A DNA stretch of 64,000 nucleotides from Micromonospora globispora. Its GTDB lineage: Bacteria; Actinomycetota; Actinomycetes; Mycobacteriales; Micromonosporaceae. Below, in pieces: positions 8,976-13,384 of the stretch. The notes beneath the pieces are model-generated. The model was given only the letters and a program-made list of their open reading frames with translations. It made no database searches and had not been told where the DNA came from. Location: NCBI RefSeq assembly GCF_003857015.1, contig NZ_QGGF01000076.1, positions 1-64,000 of the forward strand. Reading direction: 5' to 3'. The translations under genes were made by a program, and so were the position numbers. Every line of letters begins with the position of its first letter. Within the stretch, counting starts at the first letter, position 1.

Positions 8976-9347
8976 ATGGAAGACGTGGGAACTGCGAAAA
9001 CTGCTACGCCTGCCATCTCGCCGCTTGCCGGCGAGCCGATCAAGCGTGCCGATGCCGAGCGGCTCGCGGGAGTGCTGAAGGCATTCGCCGACCCGGCCCG
9101 GCTGCGACTGCTCAGTCTGATCCAGTCCGCTCCGGAGGGCGAGGCGTCCGTCAGTGACCTCACCGCGCCGCTCGGGCTCTCCCAGCCCACCGTGAGCCAT
9201 CACCTTCGGATCCTCACCGAGGCCGGCCTGCTCGAACGCGAGAAGCGCGGCGTCTGGGCGTACTACCGCCTGGTGCCGTCCGCGATCGCGGCGATCGCCG
9301 ACCTGTTGACGCCGCCCCGCAAGCGGGCCACGAAGAGGGCCCGCTGA
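8976..9347 (+). CDS. ArsR-family winged-helix regulator lacking metal cysteines
   Basis: Small homodimeric DNA-binding protein (123 aa). The winged-helix core is clear: ADPARLRLLSLIQ, then SDLTAPLGLSQPTVSHHLRIL as recognition helix, and REKRGVWAYYRL as the wing. In arsenic- and cadmium-sensing relatives the segment before the recognition helix reads CVCDL; here it is SVSDL, and the protein has no cysteine at all, so it cannot sense As(III) through that site. The ligand is therefore unknown. A GTG at codon 4 (8985) is an alternative start with better spacing to GGAAGG. It lies about 630 nt from the convergent 10.0-13.1 kb genes, so control of them is possible but unproven. Confidence 0.88.
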   Translation: MEDVGTAKTATPAISPLAGEPIKRADAERLAGVLKAFADPARLRLLSLIQSAPEGEASVSDLTAPLGLSQPTVSHHLRILTEAGLLEREKRGVWAYYRLVPSAIAAIADLLTPPRKRATKRAR

Positions 9348-9977: not shown

Positions 9978-10616
9978 TCATTCCATCTCGCCGGTGGTGG
10001 GGTCTTTGGTGGCCGTGCCCGAGCGGTCCCGAGGAACCGTTGTGCGCCACAGTGCGTGCCGGCGTTCGGCCTCGGACTTCGCCGTGGCGAGCGAGTCGGC
10101 GACGGTAGCCTCCCATCGCCGTGCGACAACCGCCGCCCAGCCGACACCCAGCACCCAGCCGTCGCTGCCCATCTCGCCGGTGTACTCCAGCCGGGTGTGG
10201 CCGTCGTCGACGGCGGTGAGGGAGAAGCGTTCACGAACGTGCGGCACGGGGCCGCGCACGAGGCGGAAGTCGACGGTGTCGGGGCGGGTGAAGGTAACCG
10301 TCTCGACCGTCTGGGTGACCAGACCACGTCCAACCGGCGTATGGTGGGCGGCCAGGACCATCCCGTCACCGCGTTCCAGCACCTGAATCTTCTCCCGCTG
10401 CGCCCTCGTGGGCCGGCCGAGGTAGGGCTGGGCGATCACGTCGAAGACCAGCTCACGGGGCGCGGCGATGTCGAGCACCTTCGGCCCGAGCGCGCGTGTC
10501 CGCCGGCCGATGCCCAGATCCAGGGTGAGCCGGCCGGTGACCAGCCCCAGGTACCCCACCACGCCCACTGCCGCCGATGTCACGGCCGCGATGGTCAAGC
10601 CGAGCCGTGCTGCCAT
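9978..10616 (-). CDS. SRPBCC (START-like/polyketide-cyclase-type) family protein
   Basis: A hydrophobic N-terminus (LGLTIAAVTSAAVGVVGYLGLV) suggests a membrane anchor, followed by a helix-grip domain: IAAPRELVFDVIAQPYLGR, then TVDFRLVRGPVPHVRERFSL and TRLEYTGEMG, the strand pattern of SRPBCC lipid- or ligand-binding proteins. The likely start is the ATG at 10616 with GGAG a few nt upstream. It is the last gene of a probable three-gene minus-strand run after the ArsM-like methyltransferase (46 nt gap) and the Tes-like radical SAM enzyme. A hydrophobic-ligand binder beside a lipid-type radical SAM enzyme is suggestive. The ligand is unknown. Confidence 0.82.
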   Translation of the reverse strand: MAARLGLTIAAVTSAAVGVVGYLGLVTGRLTLDLGIGRRTRALGPKVLDIAAPRELVFDVIAQPYLGRPTRAQREKIQVLERGDGMVLAAHHTPVGRGLVTQTVETVTFTRPDTVDFRLVRGPVPHVRERFSLTAVDDGHTRLEYTGEMGSDGWVLGVGWAAVVARRWEATVADSLATAKSEAERRHALWRTTVPRDRSGTATKDPTTGEME

Positions 10617-10662: not shown

Positions 10663-11472
10663 TCAACGCGGCTTCGTGGCTGTTAGCAGCGCGTAGCCGA
10701 GGACACGATCGGCGACGGCGGCGCGGGCGGTGGCCAGCACCGCCGGGGCGCGGTCGAAGTCGACGCCGAGGGCCTCGGCCCGTGCTCGTGCGGTCATCCG
10801 CATGACGGTGAGGCGGGCCTCGATCTGGTCGATCATGGCCGCGATCGTGGTGTCGTGGCGTTCGATGCGGGTGACCCGCAGCCCGGCGGTCGTCAGCAGG
10901 GCGTGGTACTCGTCGACGGGGCGGGCGTCACCGATACAGGCGATCGACGCGCCCAGCCCGGTCAACTCGGGCGGGAGCCGGTCGGCCTCGACGGTGACGT
11001 CGGTGATGCCGAGCCGGCCGCCGGGGCGCAACACCCGGGCGAGCTCGGCGGCGGCGGTGGGCTTGTCGGGGAAGGTGCAGAATGCGCACTCGCACACGAC
11101 CACGTCGAAGGATCCGGCGTCGACGGGTAGCCGCTCGGCGTCACCCACCTGGAACCGGATGCGGTCGGCGAGGCCGGCGGCCTGTGCCGCGCCGGTGGCG
11201 AGGGCGACGTTGGCGTCGGACAGTTCCACGCCGGTGACGTCAACCTCGTACTCGGTCGCGAGCGTCAGAGCGGTGGTCCCCCGGCCACTGGCCACATCCA
11301 GCACCCGCGCGCCGGCACGCAGGTCCAGCCGGTCGGCCAGCCGGCGGGTGAGGGCGAGGCCACCGGGGTGGTAGGAGTCGCCGAGCAGCAGGGCCACCAC
11401 GTCAGAACCGTACGTCGCGGCGCAGCACGCCTTGGCCCGGGCGGCCGAGGACGGCTGGATCGGCACGCTCAT
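10663..11472 (-). CDS. ArsM-like SAM-dependent methyltransferase
   Basis: Class I methyltransferase (269 aa). SAM-binding motif I is VLDVASGRGTTALTLA near residue 60, followed by VTGVELSD and FQVGDAERLPVDAGSFDVVVC. Cysteines lie where arsenite methyltransferases carry theirs: a CC pair near residue 16 (KACCAATYG), CECAFCTF near 130, and SIACIGDARPVDEY near 175. The last matches the ArsM segment that contributes a metal-binding Cys. Arsenite or another soft acceptor is therefore plausible, though other acceptors cannot be excluded. Its ATG overlaps the stop of the radical SAM gene (ATGA), so the two are made together. No ArsB, ArsC or Acr3 gene is nearby. Confidence 0.82.
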   Translation of the reverse strand: MSVPIQPSSAARAKACCAATYGSDVVALLLGDSYHPGGLALTRRLADRLDLRAGARVLDVASGRGTTALTLATEYEVDVTGVELSDANVALATGAAQAAGLADRIRFQVGDAERLPVDAGSFDVVVCECAFCTFPDKPTAAAELARVLRPGGRLGITDVTVEADRLPPELTGLGASIACIGDARPVDEYHALLTTAGLRVTRIERHDTTIAAMIDQIEARLTVMRMTARARAEALGVDFDRAPAVLATARAAVADRVLGYALLTATKPR

Positions 11473-13112
11473 CGGATCCCTCGGCCGACGTTGGTGCGGT
11501 CCGGCGCGATGGGGCGCCCGCCGTCCGGGCGCTGCCCCGCCCCGCTCCCGGCGATCTTCGAACCGTAGGGCGAATCGGTGAGGATCGGCTGCAGCGGCCG
11601 GGCGTTGGGCACGACGTCGGCGACCGGTATGCCGGACATCTGTTCGCGGACCTGTTCGCGGTAGCCGACGGAGTTGTAGGCGCAGAACGGAATCAACCTG
11701 CCGTCCGGGGTGATCTCCTCGACGCAGCACTTCATCAACTGTTTGACGTTGAGGGTGTACGGGTCCTGAAAGTCCTGGATGACGATCATGAAGGCGCGGT
11801 CCGTGAGGTTCGCGATCGCCTCGGGCAGGTTGATGCCGCAGGCGTCGGCGCAGTCCAGCGCCGCGGCGGTCTGGGCGAGGCGGTCGCGCGTGGTGTCGGT
11901 GCCCATGAACGCCGACGCCGACCACAGCTTTTCGAGGGCCTCCCGTACGGCGTAGTCCGGCACGACGCGGTTGGAGACGTAGTCGAGGTAGTCCTCGACG
12001 TTGAGCAACCTGGGGATCGGCACCACCGCGAAGTCCGGGGTGCCGGGGACGCCTTCGGTGAGCAGGTAGGTGATCGACCGGCAGGTCGGGAAGCAGCACG
12101 GCACCGGGAAGAAGTCCTTGGCCTGGAACCAGTCGGGCAGCTGCTGCGCGATGAGGTGGATGATGTCGGAGTTGGTCAGCCGGTTCAGCGGGTCGAAGGC
12201 GACGTGCCGGCCGGAGTGGGTGACCGGCTGGAACGACACGCTGCGCACCGCCGGGTGGGCCAGGCCGTGGCTGATGATGGCGCCGAGTTCGTGTTCGTTG
12301 AGGCCACGTTCGACCGCAGCGACGAGGGTGACGGTCAGGCCGACCTCGGCGCAGTTGTCGAGGGCCTTCTGCCTGATGGCGCGCAGGTCCCGGCCGCGGA
12401 TTTCGCGGTGGGTGCGTTCGTCGAACCCGTCGAACTGGAGGTAGATGTTCACCGCCCGGCCGGGCCGGTTGCGCTCACCCAACGCGGCGACGAACCGCTT
12501 GTCGCCGGCCAGTCGGATACCGTTGGAGTTGAGGTTGACTGCCCTGATCGGGCGGGCCTGGGCGGCGTCGATGAACTGCAGGATCTGCTTGTGGATGGTG
12601 GGTTCCCCGCCGGAGAACATCACCACCTCGGCCTCGCCTTCGCTTTCCACGAACACGTCGAGCATGCGTTCGCACTGCTCCAGTGTGATGGAGTAGCCGT
12701 CGGGTTGGTGGCCGGAGTCGGCGAAGCAGATGGGGCAGTCCAGGTTGCAGCCGGTGTTGACCTCGATGATGCCCAGGCAGGCGTGCTGTTTGTGTTCCGG
12801 GCACAGCCCGCAGTCCGACGGGCAGCCGTCGATCACCTCGGTCTGAAAGGTCAAGGGGATCGTGCCGGGCTTGTTGAACCGGGCCGAGTCCAGGTACATC
12901 TGCGCGTCGCCGTACACCAGCGCCTCGAACTGGCCGTGCTCCCGGCAGCGTTTACGCAGGTATACCTTGTCGTCGCGGATGTTGACCTGGCCGTCGACGA
13001 CGACCTTGCATACCGGGCAGATCGACTTGGTGTACTCGACGAACACCTCGTCACGGTCCCGCTTCACCGGCGGTGATACGGCGGGAACGGGGGCAGGTTC
13101 GACAGCGGTCAT
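11469..13112 (-). CDS. Radical SAM enzyme of the tetraether lipid synthase (Tes/MJ0619) family
   Basis: About 547 aa. The N-terminal metal site reads SICPVCKVVVDG...KRCREHGQF. A second cysteine cluster is CPSDCGLCPEHKQHACL, and the radical SAM cluster is CNLDCPICFA, the CX3CX2C motif binding [4Fe-4S] and SAM. C-terminal clusters CCFPTC, DCADACG and KCCVEEITPDGRLIPFCAYN complete the pattern seen in Tes and MJ0619. Archaeal Tes couples lipid chains through sp3 carbons; MJ0619 methylates a pterin precursor. The ATG at 13112 follows GAGGAG. It is first in a run with the ArsM-like and SRPBCC genes. The family is secure, the substrate unknown; radical chemistry on a lipid or pterin is the leading inference. 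Confidence 0.88.
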   Translation of the reverse strand: MTAVEPAPVPAVSPPVKRDRDEVFVEYTKSICPVCKVVVDGQVNIRDDKVYLRKRCREHGQFEALVYGDAQMYLDSARFNKPGTIPLTFQTEVIDGCPSDCGLCPEHKQHACLGIIEVNTGCNLDCPICFADSGHQPDGYSITLEQCERMLDVFVESEGEAEVVMFSGGEPTIHKQILQFIDAAQARPIRAVNLNSNGIRLAGDKRFVAALGERNRPGRAVNIYLQFDGFDERTHREIRGRDLRAIRQKALDNCAEVGLTVTLVAAVERGLNEHELGAIISHGLAHPAVRSVSFQPVTHSGRHVAFDPLNRLTNSDIIHLIAQQLPDWFQAKDFFPVPCCFPTCRSITYLLTEGVPGTPDFAVVPIPRLLNVEDYLDYVSNRVVPDYAVREALEKLWSASAFMGTDTTRDRLAQTAAALDCADACGINLPEAIANLTDRAFMIVIQDFQDPYTLNVKQLMKCCVEEITPDGRLIPFCAYNSVGYREQVREQMSGIPVADVVPNARPLQPILTDSPYGSKIAGSGAGQRPDGGRPIAPDRTNVGRGIR

Positions 13113-13384
13113 GAGTGCTCCTCGCGGCAGCGTTGTTCTGCTTGCCCTGATCAGCCTCGCTCGGGCTAACCACATCCTTCCGTGAACACGCTTACGTAAC
13201 CGGGACTCCGCGGAGCCGGTCGCGTCCGGCATTGCGAAAAGCGACGCGCCGACGCGCGAAAGCGCCCATCCGCCTCCAAGCCACGGCGTGGTTCCCGTTT
13301 CGGCCTTCCCGCCATCCCTGGACGCTGGACGGGTGATCACGACTCCCGCCCCGCGTCGCATGGCTCATGGCAGGGTGCGCAGGA

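Follow-up and report, generated by a model that had tools for sequence, protein, structure and literature searches.

A Tes-related radical SAM enzyme and a methyltransferase with ArsM-aligned cysteines are encoded by a conserved gene pair in actinomycetes

Results

A radical SAM gene overlaps a methyltransferase gene in Micromonospora globispora

This report concerns a gene pair of Micromonospora globispora, in which the gene for a radical S-adenosylmethionine (SAM) enzyme related to the tetraether synthase Tes overlaps the gene for a methyltransferase with cysteines resembling those of ArsM. The pair lies within positions 1 to 64,000 of contig NZ_QGGF01000076.1, and this whole stretch of 64,000 nucleotides is called the window below. 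A preliminary description, made from the letters alone, had proposed that a Tes/MJ0619-type enzyme is coupled to the methyltransferase and to an SRPBCC protein that follows; the motifs it quoted from the two enzymes, the overlap of stop and start codons and the anchored SRPBCC protein are all present. The locus is laid out as follows.

11469..13112, minus strand: radical SAM enzyme gene of the Tes/TrsS superfamily, 547 amino acids (Pfam, NCBIfam and PDB matches, and alignment)
10663..11472, minus strand: class I SAM methyltransferase, DVU_1556/ArsM-like, 269 amino acids (NCBIfam match and alignment)
11469..11472, minus strand: ATGA overlap of the radical SAM stop and the methyltransferase start
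13118..13122, minus strand: AGGAG, likely ribosome-binding site of the radical SAM gene, five bases before its ATG (by eye)
9978..10616 from ATG (10628 if TTG), minus strand: SRPBCC (START-like) protein, PF10604, a loosely kept partner
8976..9347, plus strand: ArsR/SmtB-family regulator

Within the overlap, the radical SAM stop codon TGA occupies 11471-11469 and the methyltransferase ATG 11472-11470, an arrangement from which we infer that translation of the two genes may be coupled. The SRPBCC gene starts 46 bases past the end of the methyltransferase gene, and its product has an N-terminal hydrophobic stretch (by eye) and scores 30.3 bits for PF10604, above the cut-off of 27.4. The ArsR/SmtB regulator is a candidate neighbour only, which its position at most might connect with the pair.

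The two-gene core is conserved

An orthologue of the radical SAM enzyme (E value 1e-40 or better) was found in only 15 of 160 genus-group genomes, so the gene is accessory. We also scanned bacterial and archaeal genomes and examined the best 80 of 276 relatives. All 80 are from actinomycetes by their record titles, some of their genomes also supply genus loci, and four genomes occur twice among them (Streptomyces sp. WZ.A104 and Streptomyces sp. CC228A, Amycolatopsis echigonensis and the metagenome-assembled genome (MAG) Dino_bin41). In all 80 loci a methyltransferase match stands directly downstream of the radical SAM gene, running across two frames in L112 and partial in L076, so this strain is not alone in having the gene order. 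The methyltransferase gene of the Streptomyces locus L112 (about 10138-10143) is possibly frame-broken. The pair is also carried by a Mycolicibacterium vanbaalenii plasmid, where the radical SAM gene has 80% identity, and a distant pair with an adjoining methyltransferase was found on all five haloarchaeal plasmids examined. On the Halalkalicoccus plasmid the radical SAM match falls into two pieces, and the radical SAM gene of the haloarchaeal plasmid locus L253 (8001-9235) is possibly frame-broken.

Of the 15 genus genomes with an orthologue, 5 keep the three-gene run that includes the SRPBCC gene, and a fixed three-gene operon was rejected on this count. The domain scores, the match to PDB entry 7tol described below and the methyltransferase neighbour in every one of the 80 loci confirm that the pairing is not due to chance. 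The conserved unit is a two-gene core of radical SAM enzyme and methyltransferase; of the coupling suggested earlier, this core stands and the SRPBCC gene as a fixed third member does not.

The radical SAM enzyme is a Tes homologue without the Tes signature residues

The radical SAM protein contains an HMPTM zinc ribbon (61.9 bits) and a Radical_SAM domain (80.5 bits) according to Pfam, and among PDB entries it matches the tetraether synthase 7tol best (E 1.5e-75), with homology over nearly its full length. Its best NCBIfam match is TrsS (NF045646; 320.2 bits, below the cut-off of 490), and for Tes itself (NF045702) it scores 314.4 bits, below the cut-off of 450. No in-frame TGA was found in the M. 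globispora gene. A TGA was flagged within two orthologue matches, G780 (L226) and G845 (L227); for G780 a selenocysteine reading was rejected, this codon being an ordinary stop in L226.

We aligned 43 rows, picked from 118 sources, with the Tes chain; 28 of these rows are linked to a methyltransferase gene (the linked rows) and 15 are not. In this alignment the rubredoxin site of the window enzyme (C32, C35, C56 and H59) corresponds to Tes C9, C12, C33 and H36, the N-cluster (C97, C101, C104 and H107) to Tes C73, C77, C80 and H83, where H83 is our own assignment of the conserved histidine in the Tes paper, and the radical SAM cluster (C122, C126 and C129) to Tes C98, C102 and C105. Four C-terminal cysteines, C344, C462, C463 and C477, align with Tes as well. 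Two extra cysteines, C340 and C425, accompany these ligands. All 28 linked rows have Cys at both positions; of the 15 other rows, none has it at position 340 and one has it at position 425. Neither residue varies across a further alignment of 19 actinomycete orthologues. AlphaFold modelled the enzyme poorly, with a mean predicted local distance difference test (pLDDT) score of 59.7. One orthologue, in L188 (9840-11474; G146), has Arg for the first rubredoxin cysteine (SIRPVCK).

MJ0619 is Tes, also called GDGT-MAS, with structures 7tol and 7tom (PMC9433317), and the two names used in the preliminary description therefore denote one protein. Met439 and Tyr459 are described in the same article as completely conserved in 1000 archaeal Tes homologues. 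They are Gln446 and Glu466 in the window enzyme. At the Met439 position the 28 linked rows have Gln (23), Glu (3) or Thr (2) and no Met; at the Tyr459 position they have Glu (25), Val (2) or Gln (1) and no Tyr. Membership in Tes was rejected on the loss of both residues together with the score under the NF045702 cut-off. Judged by alignment, the enzyme is a Tes homologue in which the metal-ligand Cys and His residues are kept, yet it is not a Tes, differing by Gln446, Glu466, the extra C340 and C425 and the methyltransferase partner. The superfamily placement and the metal ligands of the earlier assignment are thus retained; Tes function is not, with both signature residues lost and the scores below both family cut-offs.

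The methyltransferase keeps two cysteines of the ArsM type

The best NCBIfam match of the methyltransferase is the DVU_1556 family (NF045667; 132.8 bits, below the cut-off of 155), and a homologue in L168, the methyltransferase of a deep actinomycete pair, passes this model (158.9 against 155). For comparison with ArsM we used an ArsM-like protein of the genus group (L198), which itself scores 187 of 263 bits for the arsenite methyltransferase model NF008823. C129 aligns with the SNC cysteine of this protein and C179 with its GEC cysteine, which we take to be the arsenic-binding pair C174/C224 of algal ArsM. All 27 rows, from actinomycetes except for two from haloarchaea, have Cys at both positions. 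An N-terminal pair, C16-C17, is present in 24 and 25 of the 27 rows, respectively, and absent from the two haloarchaeal rows. The ArsM-like cysteines pointed out earlier are therefore borne out, and C129, the more telling one, can be added to them. Most ArsM enzymes are reported to need four conserved cysteines for catalysis (PMC8552651).

A second Tes-like group is associated with an Lgt-like gene

On the phylogenetic tree the window's clade comprises 23 linked rows, all actinomycete, with support of 100/100, and ten rows without a methyltransferase form a separate clade, likewise supported at 100/100. The haloarchaeal rows cluster with Tes and two unlinked rows.

A second Tes-like group was recognised by its partner: an Lgt-like gene lies no more than 1 kb from the radical SAM gene in 14 of 14 loci examined (L132, L133, L177-L186, L195 and L196). 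Thirteen of these are in Actinomycetota genomes or plasmids, mycobacterial plasmids among them, and one is from Persicobacter (L133). An Lgt-like match was found in none of the loci with a methyltransferase, and the unlinked loci L173-L176 have neither gene. The one Lgt-like protein scanned passes PF01790 (126.6 bits), the others being assigned by similarity. In the ten-row main clade of this group the N-cluster cysteines are absent and Lys stands at the Tes Met439 position, where Persicobacter L133 has Met. By sequence, the Tes-like enzyme and the Lgt-like protein (resembling a diacylglyceryl transferase) form a candidate lipid-modifying pair.

Thiol-redox and arsenic genes near the pair

The counts of neighbouring genes come from tblastn searches of the 80 loci, reaching up to 8 kb on either side; since 40 of the 80 loci are from Streptomyces, the counts are not independent. 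SRPBCC genes are near 36 loci, comprising 33 of the 40 Streptomyces loci and 3 of the 40 others. The further neighbours are CRP (40 of 80), DUF427 (34), MauE (32), small membrane protein c4 (31), a flavin adenine dinucleotide (FAD) disulfide reductase (27), a cytidine diphosphate (CDP)-alcohol phosphatidyltransferase (26), TlpA-like protein (17), CcdA (14), membrane protein c14 (14), the small Cys-Cys membrane proteins c34 (13) and c32 (7), MerR (12), ArsR (9) and ArsC-like protein (4).

The sharpest neighbourhood signal is DUF3179, which is near the pair in 16 of 80 loci. Among 394 genomes of the class, 9 contain DUF3179, 14 contain an orthologue (at least 73% identity) and 5 contain both (Fisher p 3.0e-6, with no correction for relatedness); the two genes lie within 1 kb in G734, G760 and G769 and on different contigs in the other two. 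DUF3179 is also near the pair on three of the five haloarchaeal plasmids. Directly upstream of the pair, three of the five plasmids have a redoxin or peroxiredoxin gene and DUF547; a dihydrolipoyl dehydrogenase gene is near on three of the five, and DsrE and TauE/SafE genes occur at haloarchaeal loci too. In Halorarius, the gene ahead of the radical SAM gene encodes a low-molecular-weight phosphatase that scores 62.6 bits for arsenate reductase (cut-off 174.3).

In Streptomyces spirodelae (L124), genes for Acr3 (434.9 bits, cut-off 282.8), an ArsR-family protein and an ArsC-like protein, the last assigned by clustering, directly follow the pair, and a similar arsenic set lies three genes off in L065 (Acr3 435.7 bits). 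Acr3 near two of the 80 loci compares with about 0.1 expected from a background of 41 copies in 118 genomes, a Poisson expectation that assumes genome sizes of 4-6 Mb and is uncorrected for relatedness; this excess is suggestive only, as a hint at arsenic. No arsenic operon was found at the pair in the window, and we rejected the idea that such an operon always accompanies the pair, since Acr3 is at two and ArsC-like genes are at four of the 80 loci and the window's genome gave no Acr3 match.

Three further loci have unusual surroundings. At L106 (12910-16600), a chromate transporter, a thioredoxin-like protein, thioredoxin reductase and two ArsC-like proteins are encoded a few genes away from the pair. 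On the M. vanbaalenii plasmid (L131, 8345-16345), the genes directly upstream of the pair encode an Rv1681-family radical SAM protein (535.7 bits against a cut-off of 380), an acyl-CoA dehydrogenase, a PhnD/SsuA-like protein, CcdA and a disulfide oxidoreductase. In Salinispora (L061, 10708-15859), the genes that follow the pair resemble, by eye, those for a CbiMNQO transporter, CopC and further copper or iron proteins.

Discussion

Several known systems resemble the pair. ArsL/ArsM of arsinothricin and ArsS/ArsM of arsenosugar biosynthesis likewise bring together a radical SAM enzyme and an ArsM-type methyltransferase (PMC8552651). However, ArsL likely has a single cluster, as stated there, whereas the window enzyme is Tes-like and has more metal sites; moreover, these are arsenic pathways, whereas the window has no arsenic operon. 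The C10P/C10Q cyclopropanase is a two-component system of radical SAM enzyme and methyltransferase too, but its radical SAM enzyme is HemN-like (PMC6050322) and that of the window Tes-like. The nearest families are TrsS and DVU_1556, the best NCBIfam matches of the window's two proteins, both of which remain under the family cut-offs. Genes of these two families presumably adjoin elsewhere. TrsS is entered in the selenoprotein table of a 2026 review, which gives no function there (PMC13188914), and no function of either family was found in the literature searched, so the enzymes were not placed in a family of known unrelated function. The pair is a variant of a kind whose nearest families NCBIfam already holds, and is itself uncharacterised. 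In line with the preliminary description, no product of the gene set was found in print: the literature search, which left most subscription papers outside, recognised no publication giving the pair a function or product, and no work on DUF3179 with MauE, or on radical SAM enzymes with organomercury, was recognised as describing the pair's system.

We propose, with a probability of roughly 40%, that the pair joins carbon to a soft element and then methylates the product, arsenic being placed before sulfur. The two genes would form the core of an accessory pathway with two enzymes. Its radical SAM enzyme would generate a 5'-deoxyadenosyl radical that abstracts hydrogen from a hydrophobic substrate at an unreactive carbon, and this carbon would be joined to the soft element at or near the C-terminal iron-sulfur cluster and the extra C340. 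The methyltransferase might then grip the new centre between C129 and C179 and methylate it. The leading candidate for the element would be trivalent arsenic, by comparison with ArsL followed by ArsM in arsinothricin, with sulfur second, and the products of the thiol-redox neighbour genes could keep the centre reduced. The sequences themselves show the protein families, the kept metal ligands and cysteines, the pairing of the genes and the surrounding DUF3179 and thiol-redox genes; from these we infer the substrate, the element, the order of steps and any role of the SRPBCC protein in this pathway.

Tes is reported to bond a substrate carbon to sulfur of its own C-terminal cluster (PMC9433317), and coupling of carbon to a soft element is therefore within the chemistry of the fold. 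In arsinothricin biosynthesis, the radical SAM enzyme is proposed to form the carbon-arsenic bond first, and ArsM then methylates (PMC8552651). We favour the soft-element proposal because of these two precedents, the ArsM-aligned cysteines and the thiol-redox neighbourhood in two domains. The Tes ligands that are kept, C340 and C425 in every linked row, the constant adjacency of the two genes, the association with DUF3179 and the arsenic genes of L124 and L065 also speak for it. The organoarsenic product that had been suggested earlier is still a candidate. A more specific version, in which a Tes-type enzyme alkylates As(III) or sulfur and an ArsM-type enzyme methylates the product in a new organoarsenical (or organosulfur lipid) route, seems doubtful to us, as does its standing as a third, independent route common to actinomycetes and haloarchaea.

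A number of observations weigh against the soft-element proposal. A single clade of all linked rows is rejected (approximately unbiased test, p-AU 0.019; 22 of 44 rows, with a long-branch warning), so that C340 and C425 might be either ancestral or the result of convergence; the N-cluster ligands are missing in 2 of the 28 linked rows. The methyltransferase scores only 94.7 bits for ArsM (NF008823, cut-off 263), and no Cys aligned with the YGCG position of ArsM was found in its alignment. Its AlphaFold model is good (pLDDT 86.4) and is nearest in fold to AtmM, MitM, a sarcosine/dimethylglycine-type enzyme, RebM and cyclopropane-type enzymes (Z about 25-29); the 50 matches listed are mostly small-molecule, phosphoethanolamine, prenyl-diphosphate and cyclopropane-type methyltransferases, and ArsM is not among them, an absence that counts neither for nor against an ArsM-like fold. 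Acr3 is confined to two of the 80 loci, no match to it was found in the window's genome (ArsB was not searched), and the window's ArsR is devoid of cysteine. No DUF3179 match was found in the window's own genome either, and 2 of 13 loci that lack a methyltransferase likewise have the FAD disulfide reductase nearby. Finally, the CDP-alcohol phosphatidyltransferase and SRPBCC neighbours would fit a lipid product as well.

The sulfur chemistry of Tes would also suit methylthiolation, in which sulfur from the C-terminal cluster enters a C-H bond and the methyltransferase S-methylates the resulting thiol, with no metalloid involved. A substrate-sulfur bond is an intermediate of Tes (PMC9433317), and the DsrE, TauE/SafE and redoxin genes of the haloarchaeal loci and the thiol-redox neighbours agree with such a reaction. 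We nevertheless consider it unlikely, as a plain thiol methyltransferase would not evidently need the two kept ArsM-type cysteines, and arsenic genes stand by the pair in L124 and L065.

Lipid tailoring, with the Tes-like enzyme coupling or modifying fatty or isoprenoid chains and the methyltransferase and SRPBCC protein acting on the same lipid, is in our view rather unlikely. Haloarchaea carry the pair, yet are reported to make only archaeol (PMC8941075); the residues invariant in Tes, Met439 and Tyr459, are Gln and Glu here; and the DUF3179 and thiol-redox genes would be left unexplained. The homology with Tes, the methyltransferase fold near cyclopropane and prenyl-diphosphate methyltransferases, and the presence of SRPBCC genes near 36 and of CDP-alcohol phosphatidyltransferase genes near 26 of the 80 loci argue for it.

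That the pair forms or cleaves a metal-carbon bond, and so detoxifies organomercury or some other soft metal through thiol redox, appears improbable. Such a role would account for a MerA-like FAD reductase (one representative, 346 bits against a cut-off of 454), the MerR-family regulators, the Cys-Cys membrane proteins c34 and c32 and, near 7 of 80 loci, a protein similar to the DF (seleno)protein family (47.4 of 70 bits), but neither MerB nor a MerA above its cut-off was found among the representatives, which alone were scanned. Pterin methylation, the old class D methylase idea for MJ0619 and a product option of the preliminary description, survives in the Pfam name HMPTM of the N-terminal zinc ribbon and is hardly credible, given that the authors of the MJ0619 structure state that they could not corroborate pterin activity and found a lipid substrate (PMC9433317).

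Bacterial relatives of Tes have been proposed as makers of membrane-spanning lipids (PMC8941075, PMC11868695). Most of the bacterial relatives examined here fall into two groups, whose partner is either an ArsM-like methyltransferase or an Lgt-like protein, and the linked rows are without the Tes signature residues, so inferences about membrane-spanning lipids from bacterial relatives need care. If the soft-element proposal is true, the pair would represent a new type of enzyme for making carbon-arsenic or carbon-sulfur bonds, in Streptomyces, Salinispora and Amycolatopsis among other genera.

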